Origin: Thermoplasmatota archaeon
Lineage (GTDB): Archaea > Thermoplasmatota > JAKEGO01 > JANQNJ01
Direction: 5' to 3'
NCBI GenBank assembly: GCA_028279645.1
Contig: JANQNJ010000146.1
Coordinates: forward strand, 1 to 38,263
Length of the DNA stretch: 38,263 bases
The notes under the pieces are model-generated. The model made no database searches. It was not told where the DNA came from and saw only the letters and a program-made list of their open reading frames with translations. Numbering within the stretch: the stretch's first letter is position 1; each line of letters opens with the position of its first letter. Shown piece after piece: positions 15,796 to 21,881 of the stretch. A program made the translations under genes and the position numbers.

Positions 15796-16311
15796 GTGTG
15801 GATTAGGTATTGCATGGGCCTATTGATAATTGCATTACTGTTGGTACCGGGCTGTCTGGTCGAAGAGAAACAGACGGATGAGTTGACACCATCGAACGGC
15901 CGGTCTGCTACTGGAAAAATAGCGATCGTGAGCGGGGTCGCAAGAACTGGGGACTCTTCGAACGGGCGGATCGTCATTTCCATCGATCTGATCATTCAGC
16001 TTAAGGCTGGCTCGGAGGTGGTCACCGTTGGAAGTGAAGGAGACGAGCTAGACTTGACCATCGGCAACGGTTCGGTCCAGAGAACTCGCCCGGAGTTCAT
16101 GATCGGGACCATTTCCGACGAGGACGGCGACCCGGCTGTACTCTCAAGGGACGAGATGATGAACCTGACCATCGATCTCGTTGAAAGCGATCTCGGAGTG
16201 GGTCCTGGTGATACCCTCTCCGTGAAGATAGAGTATGAAGATGATGATATGACGATAGGTTCCTACATCATGCCTCAAGATCTGGACGAGGAATACATTC
16301 AAATAACGTAG
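15796..16311 (+). CDS. Lipoprotein-like exported protein with archaellin-like ectodomain
   Basis: Small exported protein (171 residues). The hydrophobic N-terminus ends LLLVPGC, a plausible lipobox whose Cys would be lipidated. The ectodomain, from KIAIVSGVARTG through IDLIIQLKAGSEVV, DLTIGNGS and SVKIEYEDDDMTIGSYIMPQDL, follows the beta-sandwich pattern of archaellins and related pilins (aGS..vdl...ti, acidic turn, tP..L). This resemblance is judged by eye. Start is GTG at 15796, which supplies an Arg before the hydrophobic core; ATG at 15814 is the alternative. It lies 22 bases after the protease gene, probably in the same transcript. Confidence 0.6.
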   Translation: MWIRYCMGLLIIALLLVPGCLVEEKQTDELTPSNGRSATGKIAIVSGVARTGDSSNGRIVISIDLIIQLKAGSEVVTVGSEGDELDLTIGNGSVQRTRPEFMIGTISDEDGDPAVLSRDEMMNLTIDLVESDLGVGPGDTLSVKIEYEDDDMTIGSYIMPQDLDEEYIQIT

Positions 16312-16321
16312 GGCCACCAGC

Positions 16322-17395
16322 TCAGCTGTGGATCCGCCGCCTTCTCGAATACTTGATCAGAATGAACACCGCCAACAGACATGGCGCTGCGAACAATGAT
16401 CCCTTGATGAGGTCCCTCCTGAACGAGGTGTTCCTGGTCCGGACCTCCTTTATGTCCAACCTGTAATCGGTGTCCACATCGGTGGTACCGTATGGATCGC
16501 TGTACGCGCCTCTCGTCATGAAATGGATCCCGGCCCCTCGGGTCAGGATGATGTGGCGGGGATCGGACCTGGCGAAGTTGTCTACCTTGTGGCGTTGGCC
16601 CCATGTGGGATCGACAGGTATCCATCCAAATGGTTCCACGTAGAACTCGGCCCATCCGTGGGCGAACCTCGTGAGCTGTACGGAGGTATAGTCGCTGAAG
16701 CCATGACCCCATCCGGAGATCCTTCTGGCTGGGATGCCGTTGGCCCTCATTAGCGCGACGAAGAGGTTGCCCAGTTCCGCGGAGCCGCCCTCGCCGTTCT
16801 TCAAGGTGGTCGCTGCGTCCCACTCGCCCGCGATCTGTTGATAGTATATGTTCTCGATGATCCACTCATAGGTGTTCCATGCGATATCCACGAGGTTCTC
16901 CGAGTCTGCGGCGATCTCCCTGGCCAGCTCGATGACCCCCGGATCGTTGGCACTGATGAACTGGCTGGGTTCGAGATACCTGCTCATGTTCTCCTTGGGA
17001 GGATATACATCACTGTCACGAATGTTGTAGTCAATGGATACCAGCTTGACCTTGATGGAGATCGTGAAATTGACGGAATCCTGTGGATCGAGCTGGTCGA
17101 TGGTGTAGTGAATGAACTCGTTGCCCCAGGTATCGTTGGTGAGTCTCTCCGGTTCCTGGTGAAAATGTATCGACTTGATCTCCTGAATATCTGAGTGGTT
17201 GTTCGGGAGGGCCAGCCGGAGCGGGATATCCAAAGCGGGAGCAGAGCCGAGGTTCTGGACGGTCACGACGATGTTCAGATCGACCGTGGTGACCTCGTAC
17301 TCGTCCACCTCCGGGCTCTTGGAGAACAGGGCCACCGCCGCCGTCCCCGACAGGAGCACCGCTACTGCCAGGGTTATCGTCAAGGCCTTGCTCAT
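16322..17395 (-). CDS. Membrane-anchored transglutaminase-fold protein, catalytic Cys replaced by Ser
   Basis: The 357-residue protein has an N-terminal signal/anchor (ALTITLAVAVLLSGTAAVAL), an Ig-like domain (about 30-140), a transglutaminase core (about 160-300) and a C-terminal membrane helix (GSLFAAPCLLAVFILIKY) with a basic tail RRRRIHS. In the core the usual Cys position reads EGGSAELGNLFVALMRANGIPAR: the codon is TCC (Ser), while the His (AHGWAEFYVEPFGW) and Asp (PVDPTWG) of the triad remain. Loss of Cys is known in the transglutaminases that accompany RimK-like ligases. Its ATG is shared with the ligase stop (TGATG), so the two are co-translated. Two earlier in-frame ATGs exist at 17419 and 17404; the one at 17395 has the best spacing from GGAGGGG. 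Confidence 0.88.
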   Translation of the reverse strand: MSKALTITLAVAVLLSGTAAVALFSKSPEVDEYEVTTVDLNIVVTVQNLGSAPALDIPLRLALPNNHSDIQEIKSIHFHQEPERLTNDTWGNEFIHYTIDQLDPQDSVNFTISIKVKLVSIDYNIRDSDVYPPKENMSRYLEPSQFISANDPGVIELAREIAADSENLVDIAWNTYEWIIENIYYQQIAGEWDAATTLKNGEGGSAELGNLFVALMRANGIPARRISGWGHGFSDYTSVQLTRFAHGWAEFYVEPFGWIPVDPTWGQRHKVDNFARSDPRHIILTRGAGIHFMTRGAYSDPYGTTDVDTDYRLDIKEVRTRNTSFRRDLIKGSLFAAPCLLAVFILIKYSRRRRIHS

Positions 17396-19020
17396 CACTT
17401 CCATCCCCTCCGGTCCCATTTCCTTGCAAGTGCCACGCGTTCCTCCACTGGATCTAGTCCGTGCTCGACGAGATGTTTCTCGACGAAGCGGACCCGGCGA
17501 AGCAGACCTCCTAGATTGGTGTTCTGGATCTCGAGGCCCGGCCGCTTGTTGACCTCCAGGACGAGTGGCCCCTTTCTATCAAGAACGATATCGACGCCGA
17601 CGTAGCCCAGCCGGCTCGCGGCCTGGGCGAGACAAGCGGTCCTCAGAATGGAACCCCAGTTGGGGACCTTGAGATCGGTCAGTCTCGTGCCGGTGTCCGG
17701 ATGATCATCCACATGGCCGCCATGTCCCCGCCAGTATGGATTCAGGCCTCGTCCGTCATGGATCCTCAGGCCCATCCCGATGGCGCCCTTGTGGAGGTTG
17801 GCCGCGCCGTGGGATTCCTCGGTCGGCAGCCTGGTCATGGCCATGACCGGGAAGCCCTCGAATACGATGACCCGGATATCCGGCACACCACTGGAGTAGT
17901 ACGGCTTAAGACGTCGATCGGTCACCACTTTCTCCTCGATGATGGCGACGTCCTCCCATTCGGAGGTGAAGCCGCCGTCGATGATGTCCACGATATGGGC
18001 ATGGAGCTCGTCATCGTCGACCTTTCGTTCGCCGACCCGGTACGACCTAGGTCCGGTCCGGTCGACGACCCATATCCCCTCCCCGCCAAGCCCTCTCGAG
18101 GGTTTGATGACGAAGCTTTCCAGATCCTTCAACTTGGTCATTGCATCAGGGATCTCCTTCTTCTTCTGGATGATCGCATAGGACCGGGGTGTCGGTATGT
18201 CGAGCTGGTGCATGGTGGTCTTCATCCTGTCCTTCGACATATGGGTGAACAGGTTCCTGGGATTGTGGTCGAAGACCATGTCCCTGTTGCGGTTGTTCAT
18301 GCCCATGACATCGGTTCGGCTGCCACCCTGCCGGGTTATTGGTTTGAATCGTAGATATTCGGAGATACGCAGGTTCACCTTCAATCCAACGACGGCGTTG
18401 ACAAGGATCAGGAGCAGCCATATCTCCGGGTTGAGAGCGACCGTCCTCATCAGGCCGTTGTTCGATATGACCATTACAGCTAGAACGGTGACGCCGAAGG
18501 TTCCGAGAAGCCGCTTAGAGGGCTCGATCCAGTCGACCTCCCTTACGGCGGCCACATAACGATCGGCGATCCACCCTGTTATCAGGACCGGGAACAGGAT
18601 CGCGGATTCGAGAACGCCGATGTGATAGAATTCACCAAGGAGTTCCAGCACCGTGATCGCCAAGGCCGCCACGATGATAAGTATGGCGATCCGATGGCTC
18701 GAGGGGATCCCGAGCGGATAGATGATCACCGCGGTGAGCATGACCACGATGAATATGTCAACATAGAGCACAAGGCCCCATAGGAGACCCGCCTCGACCA
18801 CGCCGAAGGCGATGATGGTCGGTCCGAAGACGCCGAACGTCCGGACGCCACCGACGTTCCTCAGTATCGCTATGATCGTGCAGGCGACGATCAGCTGGAA
18901 GAACAGGGTGGAGTCCTCGAGGATCGGCTCGAACTGGGCGAGATTGGTGCGAATCCAGTATACGAACAATATCGAAAGGACCGCGAAGAGGGCGATCCTG
19001 ACCGTCTCGTCCTTCCTCAT
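17395..19020 (-). CDS. 7TM domain fused to RimK-related ATP-grasp ligase (alpha-L-glutamate ligase homolog)
   Basis: A 541-residue fusion. Residues about 8-215 form seven or eight membrane helices, including RTFGVFGPTIIAFGVVEAG, ESAILFPVLITGW and LLGTFGVTVLAVMVI, in the pattern of the 7TM domain that in bacteria is fused to an inactive transglutaminase. Residues about 240-530 are a cytoplasmic ATP-grasp: NRNRDMVFDHNPRNLF start block, FVIKPSRGLGGEGIWVV (ATP-binding Lys and Gly-rich loop), DIRVIVFEGFPVMAMTRLPT, NLHKGAIGMG and VLEVNKRPGL (metal-binding Glu/Asn). Known ATP-grasp ligases of the RimK type add amino acids to peptides or proteins; the acceptor here is unknown. Overlaps its upstream neighbour by ATGA and its downstream neighbour by TGATG. 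Confidence 0.92.
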   Translation of the reverse strand: MRKDETVRIALFAVLSILFVYWIRTNLAQFEPILEDSTLFFQLIVACTIIAILRNVGGVRTFGVFGPTIIAFGVVEAGLLWGLVLYVDIFIVVMLTAVIIYPLGIPSSHRIAILIIVAALAITVLELLGEFYHIGVLESAILFPVLITGWIADRYVAAVREVDWIEPSKRLLGTFGVTVLAVMVISNNGLMRTVALNPEIWLLLILVNAVVGLKVNLRISEYLRFKPITRQGGSRTDVMGMNNRNRDMVFDHNPRNLFTHMSKDRMKTTMHQLDIPTPRSYAIIQKKKEIPDAMTKLKDLESFVIKPSRGLGGEGIWVVDRTGPRSYRVGERKVDDDELHAHIVDIIDGGFTSEWEDVAIIEEKVVTDRRLKPYYSSGVPDIRVIVFEGFPVMAMTRLPTEESHGAANLHKGAIGMGLRIHDGRGLNPYWRGHGGHVDDHPDTGTRLTDLKVPNWGSILRTACLAQAASRLGYVGVDIVLDRKGPLVLEVNKRPGLEIQNTNLGGLLRRVRFVEKHLVEHGLDPVEERVALARKWDRRGWK

Positions 19021-21881
19021 TTCGAACTCCTCCCGTTGTCATCCGCCTCAAGCCAGTCGTCGGGGCTAGTCCGGCCTTTGTCGGGCCTTCTTCGCACTTC
19101 AGACGTGATCTCTTCGCTCTCATTTTGCCTGACATGAATTAGGAGGATGTAGATAGCGACGATTATGACCAGGGCTAGAATGAAATAATATCTGCCTGAG
19201 CTGTCGTCCTCTTCCTCCTTATCGAGGAGCTTGGTGCCGTCGTAGGAGACAATGACATCCCGATCGCCGACATTGACTATCCAGGCCAGGTCGGACCCTG
19301 ATTGAGAGAGCGATACATCGAGATAGTCGACCTCGGCCCCGTAGGTATCGAGAATGGTCTTCCTGATGATGAGGAAAGTATCCCAGTCGGGCCGGTCAGC
19401 GGTGCGAGGATGTACCGTCAGATGAACGACATCGGATGAGGCGAGATTGACGCCGTCGGAGGTTTCGGCGATGAGCTCGATCTCTCCGGCGGGAAGTGTC
19501 CGTGTGAGGGTTATGGTGTCGCCGGTGATCGTCATCTGGCTAGCGGCTCCTCCCAGGATAGATAGGTTCACGTATTCGGGCGGATCGCCGTCAGGGTCGA
19601 AATATATGGCGGTAAGGGTGAACTCCGTCTCTGTGGTCCCTTCCATAGCGTCGGAGAACAACGAGATGGAGGGTGCGCTTCCATCGGTTGCTGTTATGGT
19701 CGTGGTCGAGGTGTTAGTGGTCGTCGAGGAGAGGCCGTCCGTGGTCGAAAAGGAATAGTTATGATTTCCAACGGATAGGCGCCTGGTCGTGGTGAATGTC
19801 AGCTCGGTACCGTTTGTAGAAGAATGGTCCATCAGATGCCTTACCCCATCAAGGACGAGATGGACATATTCGGGCGCCTGACCCTCCGCGTCGGTGTAAA
19901 CGACGGAGAACCTTGTGGAACCTGTTACGTTACCTTCCTGAGCCGCGCTCGCGTTGAACAGTACAGGAGCGTTGTTCAGGGAAGGATCGAGATTGAACAG
20001 GGCCCAGACCGAGGTGAAGGTCGAGGAGACCTGCGATGTGAAGAACGGGTTGGTTCCGTACCCTAGATCGGGGTTTCTTAAAAGGCCGACATGGGCCTTG
20101 GCGGCACCATCATCGTCCAGGGGTCGGCCCATCCTCTGCAGGGAGAGAATGGCATCGTATGTGTAGTAGGACCTTGAGAAGTTGTTGGGCGCCGTCAAGT
20201 CGGTTGGGGAGCGCCGGAATCCACCGTCCGGGTTCTGGGAATCAAGGATCCAGTCCTCCGTCAAATCCATATCCGTCGGCGAGCCTCCTAGTATCGTCAG
20301 GCCGCGGACGGCACGATATGTAGAGCCGAGATCCGAGTCACCCTCTCCGAAATAGTTTCCGAACCCACCGTCGGCGTTCTGAAGAGAACGGAGGAACGAG
20401 ATCGCTCCCTGCCGATTGAGCGGCCTTGATCCGAGCACGTCAAGCACCCTTACAGCCCTGTACGTGTAGGCGCCCCTCGAAACATATCCGTCTGCGAAGC
20501 CGAACCCGCCGTCCTCGTTCTGGCATGACCGGATATAATCGACGGTAGCCGTGGGATCGTCAAGGGAGATCCCCAGGACCTGAAGGGTGAGGACCGCCCG
20601 AAAGGTCGACTCGACGTTGGAGAGACCGTTCGCACCGAAGCCTCCATCGGAGTTCTTCAGGGTAAGTACGAAATCCGCCGCAGACTGAGGATCGGCGGGC
20701 GTCCTGCCGATGATGTTCAACATGCTAACGGCATCGAAGGTCACCCTCAGCGTCGAGGATATTCCCGGATACTCCCCGAAGCCGCCGTCGATCCTGGAAC
20801 CGATGAACTTCTCTGCGAACGAGACCACGTCGGACCCGTCGTAGGTCGCCCCGAGCATACCTAGGGCGTCCACAGCGAATGCGGCAGTGTGTATCCCCTC
20901 CTGGTTGTCCAGTGCGTGCTCGAGGAAGCCTCCGGATGGAAGCTGGTTGTTCAGGATGAAATCCTCTATGTCATCCGTCCGTGACGCCGCTTCACCAAGG
21001 ATATCGAGAGAGATCAGGGCGTTGTGGGTGTAGGAGACGCGGGGGGAACCGCTCTCGGTGTTGGCGAATCCGCCCTCGGTGGACTGCAGGCCTGTTACAT
21101 AATCCACCGCCTCATCCTCGAAGTCGAGGCCCACGCCGAGTATTCGAACCGCCTGGAGGCCTCTTACGGTGTGAACGATGGTCGACGGCCACTCGATATC
21201 CGATTCACGATTGGTCTGATACCCGAATCCGCCGTCATAGTTCTGATGGTCCTTCACGTAGAAGACCACCTGTGTCCTGTTGGGGATAGGTGATCCAAGA
21301 AGCTCAAGTGCTCTCAAAGCGTTGAAGGTGGAGGTGATATCCGCATCACGCTCCTTGATCGACGACCGGAAGCCGTGGTTGCCGAACTCGAGTCCGGATA
21401 CCTGTAGTCTTTCCAGAAAACGAACTGCTGCGGTAGCGTTCGCAGGAGTTGAATTGAGCATGGTCAGGGTCTCAAGTGCCCTCCTTGTCGATCCTGCTTT
21501 CGAACGATCCCTGTACCAGTCACCGAATCCGCCGTCGGCGTTCTGGAACGAACGTACCGTCTTGATCATGTTGCTCCGCTCGGAGGCATTGATGCCCGAT
21601 AGATAGCCGGTGCCGTTCAGTATGCGAACGTAGTAGTGGATGTCGCTCAACGAGTTCAACCGGTTCGCCTCGATGTTCTGCGAGTTCCGGACGAAGCGGA
21701 AGGAGGCGAATGGATCGACAGAGCTGTTGGTGCCTCCGACCTGTTGAGCGGTGCCGGAACCGTCCCGGCTGGATTCAACGACCTTGTTATCGGTTTCGGG
21801 TAAATGTAAGGAACCGATCAGGAGAAGGGTGATGACTAGGATGAATGGAAAGATTCTACGGATCTCACCCTTGGTCCTCAT
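19017..21881 (-). CDS. Large surface protein with 11 prenyltransferase/squalene-cyclase-type toroid repeats
   Basis: A 954-residue exported protein. Signal peptide at about 10-28 (IFPFILVITLLLIGSLHL). Residues about 90-640 hold eleven repeats of about 47 residues centred on Q-N-x-D-G-G-F-G, the hallmark of the alpha/alpha-toroid of prenyltransferases, squalene cyclases and complement-like proteins. Two Ig/cadherin-like domains follow (each with DA/DG and PEYV motifs), then a domain WDTFLIIRKTILDTYG, an acidic linker, a membrane helix (YYFILALVIIVAIYILLIHV) and a charged cytoplasmic tail. It is not a normal prenyltransferase: it is extracellular and has no obvious zinc site. AGAGGAGA precedes the ATG. 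It heads the three-gene operon with the ATP-grasp and transglutaminase-fold proteins and is an obvious candidate substrate, receptor or scaffold for them (inference). Confidence 0.9.
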   Translation of the reverse strand: MRTKGEIRRIFPFILVITLLLIGSLHLPETDNKVVESSRDGSGTAQQVGGTNSSVDPFASFRFVRNSQNIEANRLNSLSDIHYYVRILNGTGYLSGINASERSNMIKTVRSFQNADGGFGDWYRDRSKAGSTRRALETLTMLNSTPANATAAVRFLERLQVSGLEFGNHGFRSSIKERDADITSTFNALRALELLGSPIPNRTQVVFYVKDHQNYDGGFGYQTNRESDIEWPSTIVHTVRGLQAVRILGVGLDFEDEAVDYVTGLQSTEGGFANTESGSPRVSYTHNALISLDILGEAASRTDDIEDFILNNQLPSGGFLEHALDNQEGIHTAAFAVDALGMLGATYDGSDVVSFAEKFIGSRIDGGFGEYPGISSTLRVTFDAVSMLNIIGRTPADPQSAADFVLTLKNSDGGFGANGLSNVESTFRAVLTLQVLGISLDDPTATVDYIRSCQNEDGGFGFADGYVSRGAYTYRAVRVLDVLGSRPLNRQGAISFLRSLQNADGGFGNYFGEGDSDLGSTYRAVRGLTILGGSPTDMDLTEDWILDSQNPDGGFRRSPTDLTAPNNFSRSYYTYDAILSLQRMGRPLDDDGAAKAHVGLLRNPDLGYGTNPFFTSQVSSTFTSVWALFNLDPSLNNAPVLFNASAAQEGNVTGSTRFSVVYTDAEGQAPEYVHLVLDGVRHLMDHSSTNGTELTFTTTRRLSVGNHNYSFSTTDGLSSTTTNTSTTTITATDGSAPSISLFSDAMEGTTETEFTLTAIYFDPDGDPPEYVNLSILGGAASQMTITGDTITLTRTLPAGEIELIAETSDGVNLASSDVVHLTVHPRTADRPDWDTFLIIRKTILDTYGAEVDYLDVSLSQSGSDLAWIVNVGDRDVIVSYDGTKLLDKEEEDDSSGRYYFILALVIIVAIYILLIHVRQNESEEITSEVRRRPDKGRTSPDDWLEADDNGRSSK

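Follow-up and report, generated by a model that had tools for sequence, protein, structure and literature searches.

A candidate archaeal variant of the RloB/RloC system: a membrane-domain ATP-grasp fusion encoded with a toroid and a transglutaminase-fold protein

Three overlapping genes of an archaeon of the phylum Thermoplasmatota encode a large toroid protein, an ATP-grasp ligase joined to a membrane domain and a protein with a transglutaminase (TGase) fold. This arrangement poses the question whether the triplet represents a new surface-modification system, as an earlier note on this DNA had suggested, and what such a system might make. The DNA analysed here is a stretch of 38,263 nucleotides (contig JANQNJ010000146.1, below called the window; C31 in our numbering), which belongs to a genome of 2.24 Mb that is 82% complete (G000).

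The triplet and its recurrence

All three genes are located on the minus strand. According to the ORF call, the toroid gene (19017-21881) encodes 954 amino acids and the 7TM-ATP-grasp fusion gene (17395-19020) encodes 541. The TGase-fold gene (16322-17395) yields 357 amino acids if translation is taken to start at the ATG overlapping the ligase gene's TGA, while its longest ORF starts at 17419. Reading the junctions directly from the DNA gave ATGA between the toroid and ligase genes and TGATG between the ligase and TGase genes, as the earlier note had described. The ORFs and Pfam also bear out its account of a 954-residue toroid, a 7TM-ATP-grasp fusion and a separate TGase-fold protein. The 5' neighbour, a type II methionyl aminopeptidase gene on the same strand, ends ~170 bp away without overlapping, and the genes past the TGase gene are on the opposite strand. 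The triplet is therefore likely to be an operon of its own. Two plus-strand genes converge on it, a membrane-anchored subtilase (PF00082; 13731-15773) and a small lipoprotein-like ORF (15796-16311). The contig with the second complete copy of the triplet (G071, see below) stops just past the TGase gene.

The same triplet, in the same gene order, is present in G000 and in two further genomes, G002 and G071, which speaks against a chance arrangement. G002, a Thermoplasmata MAG of the same taxonomic order as G000 but a different family, carries it on a 3.86-kb contig (JAKEGO010000118.1) that is cut at both ends. Here, the toroid copy is partial and the second half of the TGase is found at the end of another contig (C131); we infer that the two TGase pieces form one gene. 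G071, from another family of the phylum, holds a complete triplet (L026: 4368-7115, 7115-8737 and 8737-9813), which stands behind an unrelated gene and has flanks that differ from those in G000. Identity to the window proteins is 69% (G002) and 56% (G071) for the ligase, 52% (G002, partial copy) and 45% (G071) for the toroid, and 53% (G002, first half) and 56% (G071) for the TGase-fold protein.

The membrane domain PF14402 occurs in 3 of the 390 genomes of the phylum, each time within the triplet, and all three carrier genomes are incomplete (69-82% complete). The alanyl-tRNA synthetases of G000 and G071 share 38% identity, which is below the value for every triplet protein, and the fusion is present in one of the eight genomes of G071's family, G071 itself. 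These sequence comparisons suggest that the triplet probably moved horizontally as a unit, bearing in mind that several of the genomes are incomplete. A scan of viral contigs returned no relative, and a scan of genome contigs with narrow patterns gave the G002 contig alone.

Archaea outside the phylum were covered through plasmid records only. One of these, from Halobacterium sp. DL1, contains the same fusion (L034:7959-9710; 37.7% identical, with 99% of the query aligned), with neither a TGase nor a toroid gene beside it. The 7TM-ATP-grasp fusion is thus not unique to this locus and was already present in a haloarchaeal plasmid record. The genes stay together in all three carriers within the phylum, whereas the haloarchaeal fusion stands without the other two. 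The DL1 protein is 584 amino acids long and is encoded in an unannotated gap of CP007061.1 with transposases around it; the end of its gene is overlapped by a short ORF that encodes hydrophobic segments.

Features of the three proteins

The fusion protein matches PF14402 (7TM_transglut) over residues 44-228 (18337..18891, minus strand; 2.5e-15, 57 bits, cut-off 25) and the ATP-grasp family PF14397 over residues 244-514 (17479..18291, minus strand; 6.1e-59, 199.9 bits); both orthologues likewise match PF14402. TIGR02291 (NCBIfam rimK_rel_E_lig) matches with 4.2e-71 and 239.5 bits, which is under the model's cut-off of 314.2. Eight hydrophobic segments are apparent, as TM0 (residues 5-24) precedes the 7TM domain. 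The distribution of positive residues favours an N-in/C-in orientation, and the ATP-grasp domain is therefore predicted to be cytosolic. K306, D477, E489 and N491 are retained in this domain. The Asp, Glu and Asn align with the metal-binding residues of RimK, and the ATP-binding-type Lys is kept as well; the roles of these residues are established for RimK. Since the catalytic residues are kept in all three aligned orthologues, the concern that the ligase might be dead in its key residues does not hold. An AlphaFold2 model of the fusion, made from a two-row alignment, reached a pLDDT of 33.

The TGase-fold protein matches PF01841 (Pfam, 4e-20). An N-terminal hydrophobic segment (residues 5-23) is followed by a beta-sandwich-like region, the TGase core (156-263), a transmembrane segment (329-347) and an RRRI tail. 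Depending on whether the N-terminal segment is cleaved, the protein may be single-pass or two-pass. The membrane layout proposed earlier is thereby kept in outline, with eight instead of seven segments in the ligase and a single pass as one of two options for the TGase-fold protein. Ser205 (codon 16781..16783, minus strand) replaces the nucleophile Cys of transglutaminases, while H246 and D262 are kept. The same exchange, with His and Asp retained, is seen in all three genomes, which leaves the Cys-His-Asp triad of an active transglutaminase incomplete. The sole Cys of the window protein, C339, lies inside the C-terminal transmembrane segment. Among the phylum's more distant TGases, all those with a readable motif have the Cys. 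These alignments support the view that the protein would be inactive as a cysteine enzyme. The outright inactivity assumed in the earlier note is not supported, because a Ser/His/Asp set remains.

In the toroid protein, a signal sequence is followed by ~12 helical hairpins (PF00432, 1.5e-57; residues 78-629, 19995..21650, minus strand). Next come two Ig-like regions (~640-825), a conserved membrane-proximal segment (830-887) and a transmembrane segment (899-917), and then a variable, predicted cytosolic tail. Judging by this predicted topology, the protein is secreted and membrane-anchored, with its bulk outside the cell. The hairpin count comes from a low-confidence AlphaFold2 model (two-row alignment, pLDDT 39) of which the helix pattern alone was used; a pair of alpha/alpha6 barrels would have about that many. 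We considered a prenyltransferase or squalene cyclase, which is unlikely because the cyclase DxDD motif is missing from the sequence and the whole protein has a single Cys, so that the Zn ligands of prenyltransferase beta are not in place either; its predicted location is also extracellular. A PepSY-like reading of the membrane-proximal segment found no support in Pfam.

PF00432 toroids occur in 11 of the 390 genomes of the phylum, including all three triplet carriers. In five triplet-free relatives, a homologue of the Ig-like part was found but none of the toroid part. A separate observation concerns a 944-residue protein in another genome (L099:5909-8740, minus strand; G360:C55), in which a PF00432 toroid (85.9 bits) is inserted in the first half of what reads, by its sequence, like an OLD-family ATPase-TOPRIM nuclease. 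An RNase III-like ORF adjoins it. This toroid fusion is unusual and is possibly a defence gene.

Relation to bacterial RloB and RloC

The closest known arrangement is the RloA-RloB-RloC set of Pseudomonas aeruginosa PA14 (PMC12239564), also found in Legionella (L036). Both sets share the 7TM domain and an ATP-grasp ligase of the same family, a degenerate TGase facing outward, a secreted partner encoded upstream and overlapping genes. In an alignment with the Legionella and Aeromonas RloB proteins, the archaeal fusion corresponds to RloB without the TGase segment between TM0 and the 7TM domain, continued by RloC. Across four fusions and two RloB sequences, 21 positions are invariant, including R54, P67, P144, R154 and E161. 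In an unrooted ATP-grasp tree of 14 rows, the three fusions group with the haloarchaeal fusion (86/89), and the fusions together with RloC split from the phylum's standalone ATP-grasps (100/98). An attempt to add outgroups, namely RimK and a haloarchaeal ATP-grasp, foundered on long branches. The suspected link to the bacterial ligase/inactive-TGase pair is thus upheld by alignment and tree alike. In Legionella, rloB and rloC are adjacent with overlapping ends, so that an in-frame fusion would be an easy step. An apparent single-piece match in Aeromonas turned out to be two genes, RloB and RloC, that share a frame by chance.

The two sets also differ. In RloABC the 7TM domain is joined to the TGase, forming RloB, whereas in the archaeal triplet it is joined to the ligase. 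The archaeal TGase is a separate PF01841-type protein with its own C-terminal anchor, while that of RloB (PF14400) sits between TM0 and the 7TM domain. Pfam gave no PF14400 match for the archaeal protein, and hhalign placed the two TGases in register but not significantly so (probability 0.45%, E 0.13). Homology beyond the fold is thus not demonstrable from these sequences. The RloB TGase region has neither Cys nor His at the positions that match the archaeal Ser and His. In addition, the toroid takes the operon place of the bacterial secreted retropepsin RloA. RloA (PF05618) was not found in G000, G002 or G071 (69-82% complete), while Haloferax and Methanosarcina controls matched. With no RloA found and the TGase located outside RloB, we do not file the triplet as an rlo operon, and any connection to polyglutamate is indirect.

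Other relatives are more remote. RimK and RimB share the ATP-grasp chemistry residues and the amino-acid ligase superfamily, but RimK is soluble, acts on ribosomal protein S6 and has weak sequence similarity to the fusion. Standalone ATP-grasps in two Thermoplasmatota families (f10 and f28) are ~40% identical to the ligase domain; they have no membrane domain, have different neighbours and form a separate clade. At three f10 loci (L016, L018 and L019), in several genera, the standalone ATP-grasp gene (~370 aa) is convergent to a conserved ORF pair (about 410-460 and 454 aa) that follows a divergent secreted protein of >1000 residues.

As judged from the fusion, which combines the RloB membrane domain with RloC, and from the grouping in the tree, the triplet is an archaeal variant of the rloBC system with its parts rearranged, and not a wholly new kind. 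The published work we consulted that names the 7TM/inactive-TGase family concerns bacteria; 96% of the RloB matches reported are from Proteobacteria and archaea are not mentioned (PMC12239564). Set against this work, three things are new: the fusion, a TGase that is separate and of Ser type, and the toroid as a partner. The earlier claim of a new system is weakened, as the triplet is of RloB/RloC kind.

Possible functions of the triplet

In P. aeruginosa, the secreted RloA proteases cleave polyglutamate, and an rloA1-3 mutant regains hypoosmotic growth fully, and recovers partly from its other defects, when RloB or RloC is lost as well (PMC12239564). As losing RloB or RloC rescues the loss of a secreted protease, their product should be reachable from outside the inner membrane. 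The ligase is predicted to be cytosolic and the protease lies outside the inner membrane, which suggests that the RloC product is carried or presented across the membrane by RloB. That the product crosses the membrane is the simplest reading, and it is ours rather than that of the authors of that study.

We tentatively prefer a model, at somewhat less than an even chance, in which the triplet forms a synthase of peptides or poly-amino acids that is coupled to the membrane and served by two proteins that handle the product outside the cell. Here, on the cytosolic side, the eight-TM ATP-grasp protein would link acidic amino acids to one another or attach them to a peptide or protein. The product would be passed through, or coupled to, the ligase's own membrane domain, and the TGase-fold protein and the toroid would bind, guide or tether it as it emerges. 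That the archaeal membrane domain and ligase form one chain agrees with a coupling of synthesis and passage. We infer the reaction, the export and the roles of both outer proteins around a frame given by the sequences: the gene set and its conservation, the fusion, the homology to the RloB 7TM domain and RloC, the ligase residues, the Cys to Ser exchange and the predicted topology. A more specific form, a single-chain synthase-exporter whose serine-type TGase-fold partner attaches the polymer to the toroid as a surface carrier, is improbable as a whole.

We rank the preferred synthase model above four other readings. Unlikely, though the least so of these, is a transmembrane sensor, in which the toroid and a dead TGase capture a ligand and the eight TM segments relay a signal that switches the cytosolic ligase. 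The binding-type folds of the ectodomains, the lost nucleophile and the covalent attachment of membrane domain to ligase would all suit it, but neither a signalling domain nor a regulator is recognised in the triplet, and different genes flank the complete copy in G071. Nor would a sensor explain why Pseudomonas that lacks a secreted protease recovers when RloB or RloC is lost as well. The earlier suggestion, in which sensing or capture takes place on the outside and ligation on the inside, is weakened: no sign of sensing was seen, and the rlo genetics agree better with a product that is exported. Slightly less likely again is that the ligase aminoacylates a membrane-bound sugar or lipid, with the 7TM domain anchoring or flipping the carrier. 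Such a role would accord with the PF14397 match (Pfam name 'sugar-transfer associated'), the active site fused to a membrane domain and the secreted partners. TIGR02291 and the RimK-type residues instead indicate amino-acid acceptors, and the nine window ORFs scanned with Pfam, a part of the window, included no glycosyltransferase.

The remaining two readings we regard as quite unlikely, and to the same degree. One is a dedicated, RimK-style glutamylation of a cytosolic tail, either the toroid's or that of the TGase-fold protein. Both co-encoded membrane proteins do bear short cytosolic tails, and that of the TGase keeps its RRRI motif; the TGase tails are basic, however, and the toroid tails of the three orthologues vary in both length and sequence and end in Glu in one case of three. 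As a ligase substrate, the toroid tail is for this reason not favoured. The other reading, which could be combined with the preferred synthase model, ascribes activity to the TGase-fold protein: as a serine acyltransferase or hydrolase, it would attach the product to the toroid or trim it there. Retention of Ser, His and Asp in all three orthologues at 53-56% identity speaks for activity, as does the contrast with the RloB TGase region. This reading rests on three sequences, and pseudoenzymes can keep such residues for structure. We know of no serine transglutaminase.

RloB and RloC govern osmotic tolerance, biofilm formation and antibiotic sensitivity in Pseudomonas. The natural fusion points to the membrane domain and the ligase, and not the TGase, as the functional core of RloB/RloC, and it makes a coupling of synthesis to membrane passage testable in a single polypeptide. 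The toroid is a partner that had not been linked to such a system before, and the triplet provides a first lead to the function of such archaeal surface proteins.
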